Source: a virus
Strand: one strand, 5' to 3'
DNA length: 25,743 nt
IMG/VR virus record: IMGVR_UViG_3300025437_000055
Location: 1 to 25,743 of that record
Positions 14,559-25,612 of this stretch are shown here, piece after piece (the first letter of the stretch is position 1; each line of letters opens with the position of its first letter). The position numbers and the translations under genes were made by a program. The notes below the pieces were generated by a model. The model was given only the letters and a program-made list of their open reading frames with translations, was not told the DNA's origin and ran no database searches.

Positions 14559-15269
14559 TTACTTGTAGGTTTTCTTTTGCCATTTACGGCGACGATACCA
14601 ACCACCAGCAGCGAAGTCTTCGTTGTCGGTGTTCTTTTGACTTTCTTCGAAAACGCCCTTTTCTTCTGTTGCCTTCCAGTTTTCACGAAGGAATGGAATA
14701 CATTGAATAAATGGCGTACCCTTTGGGATGATACCTTCAAAGCCATCCTTGATGTGGAAAGGAATGTTGCCTTGGTGGATTGTAAATGGTCCATCGATAA
14801 CGCCAGCAACCGTTGTGAACGGAAGGTCAAAGCGGTTAATAGGATGAACCATAAGAACGCTGTAGCCTTCTGGCCAGCGAATAGCAACTTGGGTTCGCCA
14901 CGTAAAGTGTTCAAGGTGGTGTCCAGCAGGTGCTGGCATTTTTCCAGTTTGTCCTGGTGGCCTATTGTGAACAGGCGCTGGTTCTTCTGCCCAACGGCAA
15001 GAAGGACCATCTTCAAGTTGTTCTACATAAATGTCTTGTGGCGTGCGATAAACGTAACCAATTGTAAGACTGTCAAGAAATGGGACGCAGTGTTTCATGG
15101 TCATTAGACCACGATTCTTTTCATCGCCTTCAACGTCACCAAGGTAACGTGGCATTTCCTTGTACCAGGTAGGAACAACTTCAAGTGCAGGTGTCAATAA
15201 TCCCTTTGGTGCTTCTGGGATTGATTCAAATGCGGCTTTGTTTGTTGTTCTTTCGCCCTTAAATTTCAA
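14559..15269 (-). CDS. Conserved phage protein resembling DUF6065-type folds
   Basis: This 236-residue protein has a conserved central/C-terminal part: AIRWPEGYSVLMVHPINRFD, VAGVIDGPFTIHQ, then FEGIIPKGTPFIQCIPFLRE. This order resembles the DUF6065-like family of bacteria and viruses (a beta-rich, cupin-like layout), though I recall that only by pattern. The N-terminus includes EVVPTWYKEMPRYLGD. It starts at TTG (15267-15269) with AGAGG upstream, overlapping the previous gene by 11 nt; the first internal ATG would remove the conserved N-terminus. No enzymatic residues are evident. Probably an accessory enzyme or assembly protein of unknown role. Confidence 0.6.
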   Translation of the reverse strand: MKFKGERTTNKAAFESIPEAPKGLLTPALEVVPTWYKEMPRYLGDVEGDEKNRGLMTMKHCVPFLDSLTIGYVYRTPQDIYVEQLEDGPSCRWAEEPAPVHNRPPGQTGKMPAPAGHHLEHFTWRTQVAIRWPEGYSVLMVHPINRFDLPFTTVAGVIDGPFTIHQGNIPFHIKDGFEGIIPKGTPFIQCIPFLRENWKATEEKGVFEESQKNTDNEDFAAGGWYRRRKWQKKTYK

Positions 15270-16439: not shown

Positions 16440-17684
16440 TTAATTTGCCTTAAATGGGCCCACGGTGGTACCCTGAGAATAACCGCCTGGGGTCATAATT
16501 ATACCAACACCATCACCCTTTTGTCCAGTATTTGTTGTATTTACTGTGCCAAGTGACGTTGTTCCAGCAGTATCGCTGTAACCAGTTGCAGTTGCTGAAT
16601 TTCCAGAAGTTGTAATGCTTATTGCGTTAATAGCAGGGGTTGTTGAATAACCTGTGGATAAAGTGTTACTGACAACGGTTGAAATACTTCCGGCAACATT
16701 ACTAATAATGTTAAGCAACCAGTTGTAGTTTGTTCCGCTTCCAGTGTATGGTCCAAAGTATCCTGGACCCGCCAAAACAACGCTGCAACATGGACTGGAA
16801 ACACATGTTGAACCAGAATTACAAGTTGCACTGTATTTGCAGGTGCTAGGTGTGTATGATTGTCCACAACTTGTTGCCGAAATACAATATCCGGCGCTAT
16901 ATGTTGTGCCGCAACTTGAACTTGCTACGCAGGTGTTAGTACTACCATAACAACAGGTTGAAAAGTAGGCACCACAGTGCGACGAAGCAGAACAGTGGTT
17001 AGAACCCGTGCAGCAGGCATTATAAACCCCTGCATATTTACCTGATGCACCACACCTTGACGAAGCGGCGCATGTGTTTGAACCGCTGCAGCAAGCACTG
17101 TAAAAAGAACCGCAATATCCGGAAGCAGCACAAGTGTTTGCATGTGTGCAACATGAATTGAAAGTACCGGCGTAGTAAGAAGAAGGAACATATGTGCAAC
17201 ATGCTTTATATGTTCCGCCGTAATACGATGCGGGGGAACCAGTGCAACAAGAACTTGGTGAACCAGCGTAATAATTAGTACTACAACAAGAATTAGATTG
17301 ACATGTGTAGTAGTAACCATAGTAGTAATACGTGTAGTAATACGTACCAGTGGTTCCGGTTGTGGTAACAGCCCACCAGTTGTTTGCGTCGGTTTGCCAG
17401 AAAAGAATTCCCGAACCTTGCGATGCGGATTGAATGCTTGCGGTTACGTTCTGGTTGTACGGTGTTGTTGCAAAAGGGTATGAAGATGCTGCCGTTGATG
17501 TAACAGCAGTTCCACCGTTTGAATACCACGTTCCGTTTACGGCAGTCCAAACATTTCCGGTATCTGCATTCTTAAGAACACCAGAAGTTACGCGTGAAAA
17601 ACTGTCACGGATACCAATTCCAAATTGACTGACAAAACCTGAAGCCTTGTCTGAAAGTCCCCCAAAGGTATCTAGTAAAGGCAT
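16440..17684 (-). CDS. Lectin-like virion protein with Cys/Tyr-rich insert
   Basis: This 414-residue protein has an N-terminal half-domain (26-112: DSFSR, NADTGNVWTAVNGTWYSNGG, ILFWQTDANNWWAV) typical of concanavalin/LamG-like domains of phage tail proteins. Its matching C-terminal half (about 304-414) includes YNWLLNIISNVAGS, ITTSGNSATATGYSDTAGTT and IIMTPGGYSQGTTVGPF. Between the halves a region from about 115 to 300 starts with a Tyr run (YYYTYYYYGYYY) and contains 30 cysteines with eight CC pairs and units such as CCSGSNTCAASSRCG. The insert would sit as a loop on the lectin fold. It likely forms a disulfide-rich, exposed receptor-binding surface. The ATG overlaps the upstream fibre stop as TAATG. 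Confidence 0.75.
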   Translation of the reverse strand: MPLLDTFGGLSDKASGFVSQFGIGIRDSFSRVTSGVLKNADTGNVWTAVNGTWYSNGGTAVTSTAASSYPFATTPYNQNVTASIQSASQGSGILFWQTDANNWWAVTTTGTTGTYYYTYYYYGYYYTCQSNSCCSTNYYAGSPSSCCTGSPASYYGGTYKACCTYVPSSYYAGTFNSCCTHANTCAASGYCGSFYSACCSGSNTCAASSRCGASGKYAGVYNACCTGSNHCSASSHCGAYFSTCCYGSTNTCVASSSCGTTYSAGYCISATSCGQSYTPSTCKYSATCNSGSTCVSSPCCSVVLAGPGYFGPYTGSGTNYNWLLNIISNVAGSISTVVSNTLSTGYSTTPAINAISITTSGNSATATGYSDTAGTTSLGTVNTTNTGQKGDGVGIIMTPGGYSQGTTVGPFKAN

Positions 17685-20600
17685 TAGAACTTCACCAAAC
17701 TTGCTAGTGTTGTGTATGTGTTTGCACCAGTTTTGATGATGCTAAACGAATAAATGTCAAGACCACTTGGGTTTCCAGAAGAAGGAGCACTACCACCCTG
17801 CCAGTATGGCGAAATGGTAGTTCCGTCAATCTGAACAGACGTGCAGTAATATGCAGTTGTTCCTTGCGTGGTTATAATTGTTACGTTGATTGACTGACCA
17901 GTTGACAAAAGTGTGTTTAATGTCTGACCCGACGTTGAAGCAAAGTTAAAGATAAAGTTGCTTGTTGCAGTCGCGGTGTTAAGGTAAAGTGAACCATTCG
18001 TAGTAAGGTAAATAGTGTTAGCGCTTGAAGCGTAGGCGGTTGCAACAATGTTTGCTGTTTCAAGCGGCCCAACAAGAACTGGGTTGGTTGAAAGAACACT
18101 TGAACCCGTACCAGTTGAACTTGTTACACCAGTTCCACCGTTAGCAACCGCTAGCGTACCAGAGGTAATGTGAGCGACACTTGTAACTGTTGGGCTAGTA
18201 GCCGTTCCAGCAAGGTCACCGGCAAGTTGGATAATTCCTTGCGCACCAGTTGTAGCACCTACAGGAATCTGACCAAATGCAGCAGCATCTGTAGAAGCAG
18301 TACCGTTAGCAAGACCAGTAATCTTCTGACTGTTCATAGCCAAGGTGCCATTAATGGTTGTGTTTCCAGACGCACTAATTGTCATTGCATCAGTAGTTGA
18401 ACTATTTACAACAAAGTGAATTGGCTTTGAACCGTATGTACCAATTGCAAGGTCAGTAGTTGCCGATGCAACATAAACCGTTCCGGGGGTGTTAAATGCA
18501 CCTGAACCTTGGAAACCAGAACTGTTAATACCAATTTCACCAAAGTTAGTTGTTGAACTACCTTGGTCATTAGAAATGTTGAAGTTGGCACTAGCCTGTG
18601 AACCGGCGCTGGTGTTTTGAATAATTACTTGGGTGTAGTTGTTAATGCTTTCCGCGGTTGATTGCAGAATGTTAACGTCGGAATATCCAAGTGTTGCCCC
18701 AACTTGAACCGTACCAACATTTGCGGAAACAGTGTTGGAAGGTGCAGTTGTAAATGCGGCGGTTGTACCTGAAAGGCTACCTGAAAGCGTTCCACCAGAT
18801 GTTGGAAGTTTTGTACCGTCCAATGGTGCCGCAGTGGTGATTGAAGTTACACGACCCTTGGCATCAGTGGTAATAATTGGAACAGCCGTAGCACCACCCT
18901 GGGTACCTTGTGTACCAACAGATGCAAGTGTTATTGCACCAGAGCCAGCAAGTGTGGCGTCACCAGATAGTGATTGAATACCCCATTGTGAACCGTTGTA
19001 GATAATTGCTTGTCCAGATGATGCTGGGTTGTTTCCAACCAAAGCACCCTGAATGTAGTTTTGTGGACCAGCGGCACCTTGATAGCCTTGGTTACCCTGA
19101 TAGCCTTGAGGTCCTTGCGAACCGGTAGCACCCTGTGAACCAGTAGTACCTTGATTTCCTTGGAATCCTTGGTACCCTTGTGGTCCTTGTGAACCCGTGG
19201 CACCTTGTGAACCCTGAGCACCAGTATTTCCCTGTGGCCCTTGGAAGCCTTGATTTCCCTGAAATCCTTGGTACCCTTGTGGTCCTTGTGCACCGGTTGT
19301 ACCTTGTGCACCAGTGGAACCTTGGGCTCCTGTTGAACCCTGACTTCCGGTTGCACCTTGTGCACCGGTTGAGCCTTGCGAACCAGTAGAACCCTGAGCA
19401 CCTGTTGAGCCTTGCGCCCCTGTGGTTCCTTGGAAACCTTGGTTACCTTGCGTTCCCTGGCTTCCAGTAGCACCTGTAGAGCCCTGTGAGCCTGTTGCTC
19501 CTTGGTAACCCTGTGTACCCTGGGCACCTGTAGAACCTTGCGCACCGGTAGAACCTTGAACACCTTGGAATCCCTGATTACCTTGCGTTCCTTGAAAGCC
19601 TTGGTTTCCTTGCGCACCAGTAGAACCAGTAGAGCCTTGTGAACCTTGTGCTCCTGTTACACCTTGATAACCCTGCGAGCCTTGCGTTCCAGTTGCACCC
19701 TGGTATCCCTGGTTGCCTTGTGCACCAGTAGTTCCCTGCGCACCGGTTGAACCTTGGTAACCCTGGTTTCCTTGATTGCCTTGGTATCCCTGTGCACCTT
19801 GAATACCTTGGTATGCAAGTTGTGAAACACGAATAACCGCAGAACTAGCGGCGGGAACGGGGGAAGCAGCAGCAGTAGCGTTTAAAAATAGGCTTGTGGT
19901 GTCACCATTCCAGAACACTTCGTAGTAGTCACCAGCAGTGGCGTTTACTTGCCAAGTCCATGTTGTAATGGTAGGTGTGTTAGAAGTGCACTGTGAGTCA
20001 AAGGCGGTTGATACGGCAGTTGTACCGTTTTTTACAAGCCAGAAATTTGCGGTGTGGGTTCCAGGACCGGTAAGTGCTAATTGTCCAACAAAGTCAATTA
20101 GGTATGTACCTGTAACAGGCATAACCACACCGGTGTTGTATGTTCCGTTGCTGTGTAATGTAACACCGTAGTTGATGTTTGTTGAGTCGTAGCGTACTGC
20201 TTCGCCACCAGTTGTGGCGTTTTGGTCTATTGTTGAAAAAAACGAACCATAGTTGGTAATTACTCCACCGGCACCTTGTGTACCTTGGAATCCTTGGGCA
20301 CCAATACCGGCAGTTTCGGTGAAAAGAATTGGGTCTGTGCCAATCTTGATTGCACCATCTGTGTTTGAACCGTCAGCGTATTGTGTCCAAGTTGTGTTTG
20401 CGTAAGTGGTTCCGTTAATTACGAATACGTAGTCACCAGATTCAACTTGTCCAAGAATGTGGTTGTCGTAGTCTGTGGCGCGAGTGAACTGGTATTTGCT
20501 ACCTGGTGCACCAATGCTTGTTACGGTGTAGATACCGTTTTCAAGACTGCTTGTGCGACCTGTAAATAGAATACGATTACCGACAGAAAGCGTTTGTCCG

Positions 20601-21790
20601 TCAATTGTGCCAAGTGCGCCGTTTGAAATTGCAGTAATAGTTGCGCCAACACCTGTACCATTTTCTGCGTCGGCAGAACCATTTGCATAGATAGCAGGAA
20701 GTTGATTTGTGTAAACAACCTTTACAGCGGCGTGTGCGTTAGCGGCACTAGCGGCACCCTGATTACCTTGGTATCCTTGGTACCCTTGATTACCTTGGAA
20801 ACCTTGATTTCCTTGGTACCCCTGGTTGCCCTGCGTTCCCTGAAAGCCTTGATTACCTTGTGGACCCTGATTGCCCTGATAGCCTTGCGCCCCTGTGGAA
20901 CCTTGGCTACCTTGTGAACCTGTTGTTCCAGTGTTTCCCTGGTATCCTTGATTACCTTGGAACCCTTGTGTTCCTTGGCTACCTGTTGAACCCTGTGAGC
21001 CTGTAGAACCTTGGTTTCCTTGATTGCCCTGGAATCCTTGATTACCCTGCGAGCCTGTTGAACCTTGGGAACCTGTTGAACCTTGTACGCCTTGGTATCC
21101 TTGGTATCCCTGATTGCCTTGGAAACCTTGTACTCCTTGGTTGCCTGTTGAACCCTGTGAACCAGTTGAACCTTGAGAACCCTGTGAGCCCTGTGCGCCG
21201 GTAGAGCCCTGAGAACCAGTTGAACCTTGTGAACCAGTGTCACCTTGAAAACCTTGATATCCTCTATTACCTTGAAAACCTTGCGCACCCTGTGCGCCAG
21301 TTGAGCCTTGAGAGCCCGTGGAGCCTTGTGCCCCAGTAGAACCCTGCGCTCCAGTATCACCTTGGAATCCTTGTGTTCCTTGGGCACCAGTATTTCCTTG
21401 TGGGCCTTGTGCGCCTGTATTACCGGTATATCCCTGGTATCCTTGCGTTCCCTGGAAACCTTGGTTTCCTTGGGCACCAGTGGCACCTGTAGTGCCCTGT
21501 GCGCCATCGTATCCCTGGAACCCTTGGTAACCTTGATTACCCTGTGTTCCTTGCGCACCGGTTTCGCCTTGAAAGCCTTGGTATCCTTGCGGGCCTTGCG
21601 GGCCTACGTTACCAGTATTGCCTTTAGCACCAGTTACGCCCTGCGTTCCCTGGTTTCCTTGAAAGCCTTGTGTACCTTGGTTTCCTTGAAACCCTTGATT
21701 TCCCTGGGTACCCTGATTACCCTGGAAACCCTGGGCGCCAACAATGGCAGTCTGCCAACTGCTTCCATTCCAGTATTTTAATTGTGCCAT
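17684..21790 (-). CDS. Collagen-like tail fibre 1 (1368 residues)
   Basis: The N-terminal 17 residues ([17 protein letters not shown]) nearly match the other fibre in this window and probably anchor both to the same virion site. Collagen-like Gly-x-Gln/Thr repeats span about 18-347. A tail-protein domain follows ([38 protein letters not shown]), then a C1q/TNF-like or similar jelly-roll segment ([35 protein letters not shown]). Repeats resume at about 662-905. The C-terminal part (906-1368) has [20 protein letters not shown] and [16 protein letters not shown], a pattern of tail fibres. The triple helix would make a long rod with folded domains. Pro is scarce in the repeats and never in the Y position, so stability must come from Gln, Thr and other contacts. 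Confidence 0.9.
19065..19807 (-). repeat. Collagen-like Gly-x-y repeat block 2 of fibre 1
   Basis: About 245 residues of Gly-x-Gln/Thr begin right after a folded domain ([12 protein letters not shown]) and end at GAAGPQNY. Units of the [10 protein letters not shown] type are frequent, giving a Thr- and Ser-rich rod section. Confidence 0.92.
20756..21739 (-). repeat. Collagen-like Gly-x-y repeat block 1 of fibre 1
   Basis: About 330 residues of Gly-x-y, mostly Gly-x-Gln with Gly-x-Thr. The x position is filled by Asn, Tyr, Phe, Ser, Thr, Ala and Pro. The DNA repeats (units resembling GGTAACCAAGG on the minus strand) are near-identical and could recombine to vary rod length. One imperfection ([13 protein letters not shown]) interrupts the regular pattern near the start. 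Confidence 0.92.
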
Positions 21791-21804: not shown

Positions 21805-22440
21805 TTAGTCGTTTAATTTTAACCATTGGGTTGGTATAATGTCAACCAATAGGTGAATTCTGTCTTCGGTTCCCCTGTTCCAAACACTGTGGAACCTGGT
21901 GTTATTTATTTCCCAGCACTCGCCGGGTTGCATGTGAATTGTTGTGTCGCCAACTTGAAATCCAACTTTTTGATTGGTAATGATTGCTATGTGATGACGA
22001 CGACCGATTTTTAAATATTCCCCACCATCGCTGTGGGGTTCGATGGTTTTTCCAGCGGCCAGTTTAATAAAAAGGCAACGGCCAACTTTGCCATCGTGAA
22101 TTTCTTCAAGTCTTTTAATTATTGGATTTACAAGTTCCAAAAGTTCTGGTTTATCGCATTTTAATTCTGGCTTGTAAACGTAACCAGGTTTCCAGTCCAT
22201 GTCGTAAGAATAAACAAAGTAGGTATTTGTGTGCTTGTGAATTGGATAAAGTTCTTGCCTGCTAGTGTCAATGAACCATTCTGATTCAAATTCACGGACG
22301 TATTCTACAATTTTGCTAACATCAAAATCGTCGTGACGTTTGAATTCAAAGTCTTCAAGTTCCTTGGAACCGGCAAAAAAAGGAATTGCTTCCTCCACTT
22401 GCTTTTCCATGTATTGTTCCCAAACACTCTTTTCAGACAT
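21805..22440 (-). CDS. Aspartyl/asparaginyl beta-hydroxylase-like 2OG-Fe(II) oxygenase
   Basis: This 211-residue protein has a double-stranded beta-helix with the HxD...H iron triad H136-S-D138 and H184, R194 as the probable 2-oxoglutarate ligand, and the segments GRRHHIAIITN, MQPGECWEINN and DRIHLLVDI. These match the Asp/Asn beta-hydroxylase family (PF05118 type). Such enzymes hydroxylate the beta carbon of Asp or Asn in proteins. The ATG (22438-22440) overlaps the kinase stop by 8 nt, and the gene ends 14 nt before collagen-like fibre 1. The fibres are rich in Asn and Asp at Gly-x-Gln positions, making them candidate substrates (inference). Some family members act on small molecules, so a non-fibre role is possible. 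Confidence 0.85.
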   Translation of the reverse strand: MSEKSVWEQYMEKQVEEAIPFFAGSKELEDFEFKRHDDFDVSKIVEYVREFESEWFIDTSRQELYPIHKHTNTYFVYSYDMDWKPGYVYKPELKCDKPELLELVNPIIKRLEEIHDGKVGRCLFIKLAAGKTIEPHSDGGEYLKIGRRHHIAIITNQKVGFQVGDTTIHMQPGECWEINNTRFHSVWNRGTEDRIHLLVDIIPTQWLKLND

Positions 22441-22852
22441 TGATATTCTTTAGAACTAGGTTGACTTCTTCTTCAATTGTTAATCCATTGGTAATTCGAA
22501 CACCCTTGAAGCATATTGGGTCTTGCCACAAAGTGTTAGTGTCTTCATAACGACTGGTTTTAATTCGGTCAACCCAAACAAGAATATCTGGTTCTCCAAA
22601 AGCCAACCTTGTTTCAAAAGTTGGACAAACAAAATCAACGATAACGTTGTGACCTTGTTTGTTTATAAGTTTTGCCATTTCACCAAGTCGTCGTGATTGT
22701 TCTATTCGTCCGGCTTCTGAAAAATCTAAGTCCGAATTTATAGTTGCACGAACTTCGTCAGCATTTAAATGAATTGCTTTTAAACGGTCGTTAAGTGCTA
22801 TAGCAAGTGCCGTTTTTCCAGCACCAGGTAAACCTATGATTTGTATAATCAT
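22433..22852 (-). CDS. Adenylylsulfate (APS) kinase-like protein
   Basis: This 139-residue P-loop kinase opens IIQIIGLPGAGKTALA (Walker A 7-14). It continues with HLNADEVRATINSDLDFSEA and RIEQSRRLGEMAKLINKQG and ends the core with VIVDFVCPTFETRLAFG, the order of CysC/APS kinases. CysC makes PAPS, the universal sulfate donor. It lacks the C-terminal RDPKGLY element of cellular enzymes and has SRYEDTN instead, as in phage members of the family. The frame could start earlier, but the ATG at 22850-22852 overlaps the sulfotransferase stop as ATGA and is chosen. Its neighbour is a PAPS-using sulfotransferase, which supports PAPS supply; another kinase substrate cannot be excluded. Confidence 0.82.
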   Translation of the reverse strand: MIIQIIGLPGAGKTALAIALNDRLKAIHLNADEVRATINSDLDFSEAGRIEQSRRLGEMAKLINKQGHNVIVDFVCPTFETRLAFGEPDILVWVDRIKTSRYEDTNTLWQDPICFKGVRITNGLTIEEEVNLVLKNINV

Positions 22853-23520
22853 TGTCCACCATTCCAAAAAAGGTCATCATTAAAGTAAATGCTGCAATCA
22901 ATTGGACTAAGATAATAAAGCGTTTCAATTTCTTCTTGGTTTAATTTATTAAAAAGAATTTCTGAATCAACGTTTTTGTTATGGTCCCTGCTTTTGTCAA
23001 GAATTCTTTGTTTTCTTTGATTGTTGGGAAAATCGGAATAAATCTTTTCTACAGCATTTTTTGCTGTTTCGGGATTCATTTGATTGTCCCTAAGAAAAAT
23101 TTCAATTGATTTAATTCGTTTTAACAGAATTTCTTCGTCAATATTATTTATGCCACGAAAAACTTTGTCCCCTGAAAAAAACATACCCCCACCGTCACCG
23201 GAAGAAAGAATATTTTTTGATTGAAAGTTAGACAAAAATGCTTTGTTTTCGTCAACCCATTCAAAAAAATCGTTAACGGTTAACTTTGATTCTGGTATTA
23301 AACCTGAACTAACAAGCCAGCAATAGTGACTAACTGTTCTTTTTGCAGGGTCGCGCCAAGAACTAATCAAGTACGTAGACTTTAATACTGGTTTCCACGC
23401 ATAATGTGCTACCTTATCAAAGACAAAAATATCCCTACTAACTATGTCAATGATTTCACGTAGCACCCAATGACCACCGGCCTTTGGTATGTGTAGAAAA
23501 TAAATGTGGTCTTTTTCCAT
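22849..23520 (-). CDS. PAPS-dependent sulfotransferase-like protein
   Basis: This 223-residue protein has the two PAPS-binding elements of sulfotransferases. The 5'-phosphosulfate loop is FLHIPKAGGHWVL (8-20) and the 3'-phosphate element is SSWRDPAKRTVSHYCW (53-68, with R56 and S64). The end LSPIDCSIYFNDDLFW resembles the tail of the Sulfotransfer_2 group. It would transfer sulfate from PAPS to a hydroxyl or tyrosine. The ATG at 23518-23520 follows GAGGGAACT, directly after a strong hairpin, and the stop overlaps the APS-kinase-like start. The acceptor is unknown. Candidates are Tyr or hydroxylated Asn/Asp in the collagen-like fibres on either side, or the Tyr-rich insert of the lectin-like protein. 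Confidence 0.78.
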   Translation of the reverse strand: MEKDHIYFLHIPKAGGHWVLREIIDIVSRDIFVFDKVAHYAWKPVLKSTYLISSWRDPAKRTVSHYCWLVSSGLIPESKLTVNDFFEWVDENKAFLSNFQSKNILSSGDGGGMFFSGDKVFRGINNIDEEILLKRIKSIEIFLRDNQMNPETAKNAVEKIYSDFPNNQRKQRILDKSRDHNKNVDSEILFNKLNQEEIETLYYLSPIDCSIYFNDDLFWNGGQ

Positions 23521-23575: not shown

Positions 23576-25612
23576 CTACAGTGTAGTTGGTGTCCAAACA
23601 CCACTTGTAAAGACAAGAACTTGTCCTTCAGTTGGTGCAATTGGACTAACTGGGTATCCCTGTAGTTCAGTTGAATTTGGTGGTGATGCAGTAACGGTTT
23701 CGTCAAGCCAAAGGATGTTGGTGTCCATTGGTGGAACGCCGTCATTTGACTCGTAAATACCTGGGTCACCAATGTTTCCTTGGTTTCCTTGGTATCCCTG
23801 GTTTCCTTGTGGACCTTGGTCTCCTTGGAATCCTTTTGCACCTTGGTATCCTTGGTTTCCATCATTTCCTTGGTAGCCTTGGAATCCACGTGGTCCTTGG
23901 AATCCTTGCGGTCCTTGGTCACCTTGGTATCCCTGGTTACCCATAACACCGTCGTTACCTTGGAATCCTTGGTTACCTTGGAATCCTTGTGTACCTTGTG
24001 GTACGAATACGTACCAGTCAGCGTTACTGTTGTCTGGTTCGGGGGTGCTATTTTTATTTGAATCAGGCGTAATGTAAACTGCGCCGTTGTAAGTAACTAC
24101 ATCATATGGTGCATAAGTAGTTCCTGCATCCCAGTCACCTTGGTAAGTAAATCCTTGTCCTTGGTATCCCTGGTAGCCTTGAGGTCCCATGTCACCTTGG
24201 AATCCTTGAGGTCCCTGGTCGCCCTGGAATCCTTGGTTTCCTTGGTCGCCCTGGAATCCCTGTGGACCATCGTTACCCTGAAATCCTTGGTCGCCTTGTG
24301 GGCCCTGGTATCCCTGTGGACCCTGGTCACCCTGGAAGCCCTGGTTTCCGTCGTTTCCTTGGAATCCCTGCGGACCCTGGTCACCTTGGAACCCTTGATT
24401 ACCATCGTTACCTTGAAAGCCTTGTGGCCCTTGGTCGCCTTGGAAACCTTGCGCACCCTGAACACCAACAGCACCGTTAAGGTTTACTGTCCATGATGTG
24501 AATTCGCCAGAACCAACAACGTCACCAGGTGTGGTGCTAACGGTAAAGGCAAGTGCTCCGCCTTCTGGGTCGTATGAATCAACGGTAGCAACTACATAGT
24601 GTGTGCTGTCGTTGGCAATAACAATTTCTTGTCCAGGTGTGTATGAAAGACCTGCTGCAACTGTAATGTCGCCAGAACCGGTAGCAAGTGTGTAGTCGCT
24701 TGAACTTGTTGTAGCGTACTTGTCAGACTGTCCTTGGTAACCTTGGTAACCCTGCGGACCTTGGTCTCCCTGGAATCCCTGCGTTCCCTGGTCGCCTTGA
24801 AAACCCTGTGGACCCTGGTCACCTTGAAAACCTTGATTTCCCTGGTCTCCTTGGAATCCTTGCGTACCATCTTGTCCCTGCGAACCTTGGTATCCTTGGT
24901 ATCCACGTACACCCTGTGTACCTTGGTCACCCTGAAATCCTTGAGGTCCTTGGTATCCCCGGTTTCCTTGCGTACCGTCATTACCCTGGAACCCTTGTGG
25001 TCCTTGGTCGCCCTGAAAGCCTTGTGCGCCATCTGCACCTTGGAAGCCTTGATTTCCTTGGTTTCCTTGGTCGCCCTTAGAAGCAATAAGTGACCAGTAA
25101 CCTGGCTTAGAAACTGGGTTTCCGGTATTGTCAGTGTCGTTTGTGCAAACGAATGAAGAACCTTGGTATGTAACTACGTCATTAATGTAGTAGTTGTCGT
25201 TTGTTCCGTATGAACCTTGGTAGTTTAGACCTAGACCTTGAAAACCTTGTGGTCCTTGGTCACCTTGTAAGCCTTGATTTCCCTGAAATCCCTGGTCTCC
25301 TTGAAAACCTTGTGGGCCTTGGTCGCCTTGAAATCCTTGTGGACCGTCATTTCCTTGGTAACCTTGGTCACCTTGTGAACCTTGAAAACCCTGGGGTCCG
25401 TCTGCGCCTTGGAAACCTTGGTTACCCTGGTAACCCTTAGAACCCTGTGGTCCCTGGTAGCCCTGACTTCCTTGATTACCTTGTGAACCCTGCGAACCAG
25501 TGTCACCTTGTGTTCCTTGATTACCTTGGGGACCTTGGTCTCCTTGGAATCCCTGAGCACCGACTACTGCGGTAACCCAAGCGGACCCATTCCAATACTT
25601 TAATTGTGCCAT
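23576..25612 (-). CDS. Collagen-like tail fibre 2 (678 residues)
   Basis: It shares the N-terminal anchor with fibre 1 ([18 protein letters not shown]). Four collagen-like blocks with Gly-x-Gln and Gly-x-Asp units (for example GFQGDQGPQGFQGNDG) are separated by small folded modules. Two are carbohydrate-binding-like modules (about 129-180 and 486-538) with YINDVVTYQGSSFV and YAPYDVVTYNGAVYI followed by a Trp. One beta-rich domain is at about 293-380 (LATGSGDITVAAGLSYTPGQ). The tail (619-678) includes ILWLDETV and EGQVLVFTSGVWTPTTL, which is typical of phage fibre C-termini. The repeats are rich in Asp and Asn at x positions, unlike the Thr-rich second block of fibre 1. It is the first gene of the region, with AAAGGAAA ahead of its ATG. 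Confidence 0.9.
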   Translation of the reverse strand: MAQLKYWNGSAWVTAVVGAQGFQGDQGPQGNQGTQGDTGSQGSQGNQGSQGYQGPQGSKGYQGNQGFQGADGPQGFQGSQGDQGYQGNDGPQGFQGDQGPQGFQGDQGFQGNQGLQGDQGPQGFQGLGLNYQGSYGTNDNYYINDVVTYQGSSFVCTNDTDNTGNPVSKPGYWSLIASKGDQGNQGNQGFQGADGAQGFQGDQGPQGFQGNDGTQGNRGYQGPQGFQGDQGTQGVRGYQGYQGSQGQDGTQGFQGDQGNQGFQGDQGPQGFQGDQGTQGFQGDQGPQGYQGYQGQSDKYATTSSSDYTLATGSGDITVAAGLSYTPGQEIVIANDSTHYVVATVDSYDPEGGALAFTVSTTPGDVVGSGEFTSWTVNLNGAVGVQGAQGFQGDQGPQGFQGNDGNQGFQGDQGPQGFQGNDGNQGFQGDQGPQGYQGPQGDQGFQGNDGPQGFQGDQGNQGFQGDQGPQGFQGDMGPQGYQGYQGQGFTYQGDWDAGTTYAPYDVVTYNGAVYITPDSNKNSTPEPDNSNADWYVFVPQGTQGFQGNQGFQGNDGVMGNQGYQGDQGPQGFQGPRGFQGYQGNDGNQGYQGAKGFQGDQGPQGNQGYQGNQGNIGDPGIYESNDGVPPMDTNILWLDETVTASPPNSTELQGYPVSPIAPTEGQVLVFTSGVWTPTTL
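23758..25561 (-). repeat. Collagen-like repeat blocks of fibre 2, with modules between
   Basis: Four Gly-x-Gln/Asp blocks lie at about residues 18-128, 180-292, 381-485 and 539-618. The recurring 15-18-nt DNA unit encodes GFQGDQGPQG. The folded modules interrupt the triple-helical rod, giving a bead-and-rod layout. Confidence 0.9.

Follow-up and report, generated by a model that had tools for sequence, protein, structure and literature searches.

The presence of three overlapping genes for a predicted sulfotransferase, a predicted sulfate-activating kinase and a putative hydroxylase between two collagen-like fibre genes of a freshwater virus of bacteria raises the question of whether these genes function together and, if so, what they modify. 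The window, that is, the whole stretch of DNA analyzed here, is a 25,743-base virus record with WhiB-like and RecA-like open reading frames (ORFs). On its minus strand, a collagen-like fibre gene (23576-25612, 678 aa; PF01391, E=7.8e-68) lies directly upstream of the cassette and is followed by the genes for a PAPS-type sulfotransferase (ST; 22849-23520, 223 aa), an APS-kinase-like P-loop enzyme (KIN; 22433-22852, 139 aa) and an Fe(II)/2-oxoglutarate oxygenase of the Asp/Asn beta-hydroxylase family (HYD; 21805-22440, 211 aa), then, directly downstream of the cassette, by a second collagen-like fibre gene (17684-21790, 1368 aa; PF01391, E=1.8e-89) and by the gene for a Cys/Tyr-rich putative tail protein (16440-17684) that is syntenic in contigs L002 and L004. 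KIN is a short form without the C-terminal nucleotidyltransferase; its coordinates are counted from the ATG at 22852, the likelier start, a TTG at 22867 (22433-22867) being possible. ST and KIN overlap by a 4-nt ATGA that includes the ATG start of KIN; the overlap between KIN and HYD measures 8 nt. A sequence-only reading of this locus had described three coupled genes with overlaps of these lengths between two collagen-like genes, and the ORFs, their strand and the flanking PF01391 matches bear out that description.

The three ORFs did not arise by chance, because they are conserved in L002 (64.7 kb) in the same ST-KIN-HYD order, between homologous genes, with dN far below dS. Amino acid identity between the window and L002 is 68% for ST, 63% for KIN and 82% for HYD, and the dN/dS values (0.25/1.96, 0.27/1.42 and 0.10/1.55, respectively), the ratios of which are approximate because dS is high, show that all three genes are under purifying selection. 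The protein that adjoins the cassette (family 66) is shared as well, the homologs of the product of 16440-17684 consisting of 415 aa in L002 and 491 aa in L004; the window protein contains Cys-, Ser- and Tyr-rich repeats and had no match in a search of phage records. A scan of the window for promoters and terminators yielded hits at chance level. The WhiB-like ORFs suggest an actinobacterial host, and the nearest phage matches of the window helicase and RecA come from actinobacterial and mixed hosts, all at less than 60% identity. Elsewhere in the window, a phrog_7084 gene (14559-15269) has phage-record matches that are nearly all from haloarchaeal tailed viruses (about 31-33% identity).

The motifs that had been read from the sequence, HIPKAGGHW, RDPAKRTVSHY, GLPGAGKT and HSD...H, are all in place. 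In ST, the 5'-PSB loop HIPKAGGHW (HIPKxGG) contributes K13, G15 and G16, and the 3'-PB motif RDPAKRTVSHY contributes R56, P58 and S64, all invariant in 12 sequences. The AlphaFold model (pLDDT 87), compared with the PDB by Foldseek, matched almost only sulfotransferases, including all of the best 28; the top match, heparan sulfate 6-O-sulfotransferase 5t03 (probability 1.00), is remote (E 2e-3), and the ST profile compared with PDB sequences gave only a weak match, to HS6OST. In a profile-profile comparison, ST matched, at 95%, a family in which Sulfotransfer_2 is recognized. The window ST had no hit in Pfam or NCBIfam, its L002 counterpart falls below the Pfam cut-off (15.2 bits against 22), and more distant neighbouring sulfotransferases pass. 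No relatives of ST were found in phage records or in a single-sequence search of viral contigs, and an alignment-based search recovered 3 loci. The family placements anticipated for HMM searches were, in other words, confirmed for KIN (PF01583) and HYD (PF05118), and for ST, with no Pfam hit of its own, the support comes from the motifs and the predicted fold, which place it in the PAPS-dependent sulfotransferase family as a putative catalyst of sulfuryl transfer.

The assignment of HYD to the PF05118 Asp/Asn beta-hydroxylase family is supported by a match of 68 bits (E=1.1e-18; cut-off 22.6) and by the metal and 2-oxoglutarate ligands H136-x-D138...H184 (the HSD...H motif) and R194, invariant in 23 sequences. 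Its best PDB sequence match is L-proline cis-4-hydroxylase (4p7w), and the family includes amino-acid and lipid hydroxylases, and protein Asp/Asn hydroxylation by HYD is putative. A PF05118 hydroxylase gene also lies beside a terminase-like gene in Limnohabitans phage DC33 (PQ492659.1), filed as Inoviridae, a classification that looks wrong because the genome is 39 kb long and carries the terminase-like gene.

KIN matches PF01583 with 60.6 bits (E=2.4e-16; Pfam gathering cut-off 21.1), the profile alignment covering positions 3-89 of 152, with a short and divergent C-terminal part; the model of the L002 protein aligns with APS kinases over about 150-178 columns. The P-loop GLPGAGKT and the APS-kinase block around D37, R40, F49 and R54, residues whose roles are general knowledge, are present, align with 3cr7 and 3uie and are conserved in 20 sequences, the Asn of DRxEN being usually Gln in this family. 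APS kinases and PAPS synthases rank first when the profile of these 20 sequences is compared with the PDB, and they account for all of the first 49 PDB matches of the model of the full-length L002 homolog. We do not class KIN as a CysC ortholog, because its score against the NCBIfam apsK equivalog (58.9 bits) is under the cut-off of 138.7. At least 534 stretches in IMG/VR carry relatives of KIN, and 84,980 prokaryote genomes yielded a single close relative; this sole close match to the full kinase is a metagenome-assembled genome, on a contig that resembles the phage neighbourhoods. The family is essentially phage-specific. Most of the relatives read are about 252 aa long and possess a second domain (GRYQPWHEGH...GRD...ISATEKRKEM) that is closest to NadM-type nucleotidyltransferases, the short form being found in the window, L004, L005/L006 and L023/L029. 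An ATP sulfurylase domain is absent from the window KIN, and the domain carried by its relatives is the NadM-like one, not PF01747. A DUF2061 gene, which usually comes after the kinase-nucleotidyltransferase fusion, is located within 3 genes of KIN in 46 of the 65 non-redundant loci. Two cultured Stenotrophomonas phages, Bhz60 and DLP_6 (L204, L205), encode fused homologs with no adjacent annotated sulfotransferase; the KIN homologs of Stenotrophomonas phages adjoin NADAR/MazG-type genes.

Bacterial counterparts, reached only through a search for DUF2061 in an alphaproteobacterial sample, point to the pathway to which this kinase would belong. In genome G077 (L234:6992-11353, G077:C1), consecutive genes code for a CysG-type tetrapyrrole methylase, sulfite reductase (NIR_SIR), CysH (PAPS_reduct), DUF2061, a KIN homolog (PF01583, 24.5 bits) and a separate nucleotidyltransferase homolog (CTP_transf_like). 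KIN and the nucleotidyltransferase occur side by side, as separate genes, in 5 of the 6 genomes searched within a single alphaproteobacterial order, and in the short stretches read from the other four positive genomes (L236-L239) the arrangement is again CysH-DUF2061-KIN-nucleotidyltransferase. DUF2061 is, in addition, fused to CysN-C (L220:1-1704) and to a CysN-like protein (L219:1465-2610). Because of this operon and these fusions, a role in activating or assimilating sulfate is supported for KIN, the nucleotidyltransferase and DUF2061, and the earlier proposal that KIN serves to make PAPS gains from this gene context to the same extent. The nucleotidyltransferase was considered as a stand-in for a missing ATP sulfurylase in these bacteria, which is not supported for G077, where Sat is also encoded; the CysH of this genome may use APS, as its CC motif would suggest. 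For DUF2061 and the nucleotidyltransferase, the literature, as far as searched, describes no function; a candidate sulfate-handling role can now be offered for DUF2061 and for the NadM-like domain. ATP sulfurylase (PF01747) had no match in 14 related contigs and, given also that the window KIN is without the nucleotidyltransferase, the host would have to supply the APS. The streamlined acI freshwater actinobacteria have no assimilatory sulfate reduction (PMC5301498), a lack that would make this supply problematic in a host from this group.

The three genes are, moreover, recurrently linked. In the 65 non-redundant loci, an ST gene occupies 11 of 128 positions adjacent to KIN, compared to 14 of 1367 at a distance of at least 3 (odds ratio 9, P=2e-6), and HYD is enriched beside KIN as well (P=0.002). 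The ST calls combined HMMs with a motif rule of our own, so single calls may err, and genes that neighbour one another in related phages count as only partly independent observations. The ST genes beside KIN fall into several groups that diverge from each other. Among 31 non-redundant HYD genes, ST is located within 3 genes in 26 and KIN in 23, the latter count being biased upward, and the former less so, because part of the loci were found via KIN. These counts support the view that HYD and ST are parts of one module and agree with the suggestion, made from the window alone, that the hydroxylase and the sulfotransferase could work together. The order of the genes varies: ST-KIN-HYD in the window and L002, ST-HYD-KIN in large phages, HYD-ST-KIN in L043, ST-HYD-x-x-KIN in L023, HYD-KIN-DUF2061-ST in L003 and KIN-HYD in L090. 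In many large phages, KIN lies away from fibres and has no neighbouring ST. A conserved ST-HYD-KIN-DUF2061-Trp halogenase block is found in the large aquatic phages L108 and L118 and their relatives, some with a luciferase-like protein encoded upstream. Glycosyltransferase-like genes occur near KIN at L009:10857-13539, L104:8171-9993 and L063:1048-2010, with ST also present in L009 and L104; L104 further carries a GDP-mannose 4,6-dehydratase-like gene, and the gene in L063 is a GlcNAc transferase (PF11397).

Taken together, these observations are best read as showing the cassette to be part of a large mobile phage module that recurs in many aquatic viruses. Our main reading, to which we assign a probability of roughly 0.6, is that ST, KIN and HYD make up one translationally coupled cassette for sulfation and hydroxylation that belongs to this module and sits, in the window, at the fibre locus; the activities, the order of the steps and the acceptor are read from motifs, models and gene neighbourhoods. 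KIN would contribute to the activation of sulfate, at the step from APS to PAPS, ST would pass the sulfate of PAPS on to an acceptor, and HYD, using Fe(II) and 2-oxoglutarate, would oxidize this acceptor or a site close to it. The module at large would consist of KIN, usually fused to the NadM-like nucleotidyltransferase, then DUF2061, and interchangeable sulfotransferases, often with the addition of HYD, other 2-oxoglutarate oxygenases, Trp-halogenase or glycosyltransferases. The likeliest acceptor would be a fibre protein, or a glycan borne by the fibre or by the host surface and met at adsorption, because the cassette sits inside the tail-fibre cluster.

The genomic context in small tailed phages agrees with such an acceptor. 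ST and KIN are found as a pair amid tail genes in L095, L097, L078, L179 and L190, with a long probable tape-measure ORF and fibre-like ORFs nearby in L095 and Gly_rich_2 and LamG proteins in L097, and alongside collagens in L002, L004, L009, L173 and L154. In L097, a small fibre-cluster protein encoded directly before KIN is fused to a sulfotransferase-like domain (1788-2630; Sulfotransfer_1, 18.1 bits, below the cut-off). The fibre region, where the sequence-only reading had placed the cassette, is supported as its location by the first five of these contigs as well as by L002 and L004. In small tailed phages, fibres or the glycans on them are the probable target of the cassette. The main competing view, improbable on balance and nevertheless the strongest of the alternatives, is that the cassette acts on a small molecule or on a host surface glycan or lipid, in metabolic reprogramming, superinfection exclusion or chemical signalling, and that the fibre locus is a mere site of cargo insertion. 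The relatives in large phages, away from tail genes, indeed add a Trp-halogenase (PF04820, E=3e-101), the luciferase-like protein and 2-oxoglutarate oxygenases; glycosyltransferase-like and GDP-mannose dehydratase-like genes accompany ST-KIN in L009 and L104; free proline is the substrate of the nearest solved relative of HYD; and the nearest solved fold of ST is that of a glycan sulfotransferase. However, this view has to contend with the placement of ST-KIN within the fibre clusters of small phages and the fusion of one ST-like domain to a fibre-cluster protein, and glycosyltransferase family 2 was found in neither the window nor L004.

The collagen-like repeats themselves were the substrate originally proposed, with HYD hydroxylating Asn/Asp in the Gly-x-Gln repeats and ST sulfating Tyr or the new hydroxyls on both flanking fibres. 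The cassette does lie between two fibre genes in the window and in L002, and the composition of the repeats is compatible with the proposal: there are 137 G-x-y triplets in 23576-25612, with mostly Gln at Y, and 193 in 17684-21790, with Gln in 140 and Thr in 47, and across both proteins, Tyr occurs in 38 and Asn/Asp in 83 of the 330 triplets. The statement that Pro is missing from the Y position fails in the strict sense (1/330) and is nearly right, Gln taking this position in 254/330. A precedent exists as well, since mimivirus encodes its own collagen hydroxylation (L230; PMC9546862), and Planktophila phages carry collagen-like genes in a variable tail-fibre island (PMC10202952). Nonetheless, the co-occurrence survey that had been named beforehand as capable of overturning the proposal largely does so, the module being common without collagen genes. 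A collagen gene is located within 5 genes of HYD in 2 of the 31 non-redundant loci, PF01391 matches were detected in 3 of the 32 contigs chosen for the module, many of which are fragments, and the enrichment of collagens near KIN is not significant (P=0.15, 65 non-redundant loci). Neither does the richness in Asn, Asp and Tyr discriminate: the collagens of L004, where ST-KIN occurs without HYD, are N/D/Y-rich like those of the window, whereas Tyr is missing altogether from the triplets of the collagens that accompany ST-KIN in L009, L173 and L154. Collagens richer in N/D in HYD-bearing phages were sought and not seen. We therefore regard the repeats as an unlikely specific substrate, and the location, with ST-KIN among tail genes, as support for a role in the fibres or adsorption.

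Slightly less probable still is that KIN, with the nucleotidyltransferase and DUF2061, is an auxiliary metabolic gene for sulfur assimilation, and ST and HYD are independent cargo. This would fit the occurrence of KIN and DUF2061 in a bacterial assimilatory sulfate reduction operon and the many phage KIN genes with no ST nearby, but not the roughly 9-fold enrichment of ST beside KIN, the co-travel of HYD with both or the overlap of the three genes in the window. That KIN phosphorylates something other than APS, perhaps a nucleotide or a metabolite of the NAD or nucleotide pathways, so that the sulfate reading is wrong, is equally doubtful: the NadM-like partner domain, the NADAR gene next to the Stenotrophomonas phage homolog and the score under the apsK cut-off hint at it, whereas the first rank of APS kinases in the sequence and fold searches, the ties to CysH, sulfite reductase and CysN-C through operons and fusions, and the sulfotransferase neighbours all speak against it.

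Under the preferred reading, of a sulfation and hydroxylation cassette at the fibre locus, some of the sulfotransferases of aquatic phages, which had been noted before with their function called unclear (PMC10580990), are now tied, in recurrent cassettes, to a phage kinase family with relatives in sulfate assimilation operons and to a hydroxylase, and, in small phages, these cassettes are located at the host-recognition locus. Through these ties, phage-directed sulfation becomes a concrete hypothesis with named genes. The remark in the sequence-only reading that no phage system of this kind had been described agrees with the open-access literature, searched mostly at the level of titles and abstracts, where no phage cassette joining sulfate activation, sulfotransfer and hydroxylation was found. 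If the hypothesis holds, sulfation and hydroxylation of fibres or fibre glycans would be a virion modification not described in phages. The broadest form of the idea, in which phages modify receptor-binding fibres or fibre glycans with their own sulfation machinery and the fusion of kinase and nucleotidyltransferase represents a second type of PAPS synthase, peculiar to phages, is conceivable, but we entertain it tentatively, at odds of well under one in two.

Comparison with known systems brings out both the kinship and the distinctness of the cassette. With CysC and the PAPS synthases (PAPSS, CysNC), KIN shares the P-loop kinase fold, the motif block IHLNADEVR...NSDL.F....R.EQ.RR.GE, frequent fusion to a nucleotidyltransferase and the link to sulfotransferases and CysH, but it is phage-borne, its C-terminal half is shorter and divergent, and the partner domain in its relatives is NadM-like (GRYQPWHEGH) rather than a canonical ATP sulfurylase, the window copy having no partner. 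ST has both PAPS-binding motifs, 5'-PSB and 3'-PB, in common with Sulfotransfer_1/2/3 and heparan sulfate 6-O-sulfotransferase, as well as its predicted fold, and differs in its length of 223 aa and in having no Pfam hit of its own. HYD resembles the PF05118 enzymes (L-proline cis-4-hydroxylase, LpxO, OlsC) in its HxD...H and Arg motif and its domain match and is set apart by being encoded in phages, in the company of ST and KIN. Mimivirus, with the L230 lysyl hydroxylase/glucosyltransferase and R699, also combines a virus-encoded hydroxylase with collagen-like proteins, whereas the window has a hydroxylase of another family along with sulfation genes, and most relatives of the cassette occur without collagen genes. 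Finally, the RaxST/RaxP/RaxQ system of tyrosine sulfation in Xanthomonas, although bacterial, directed at a peptide and devoid of a hydroxylase, joins genes for sulfate activation to a dedicated sulfotransferase, as the phage cassette appears to do.
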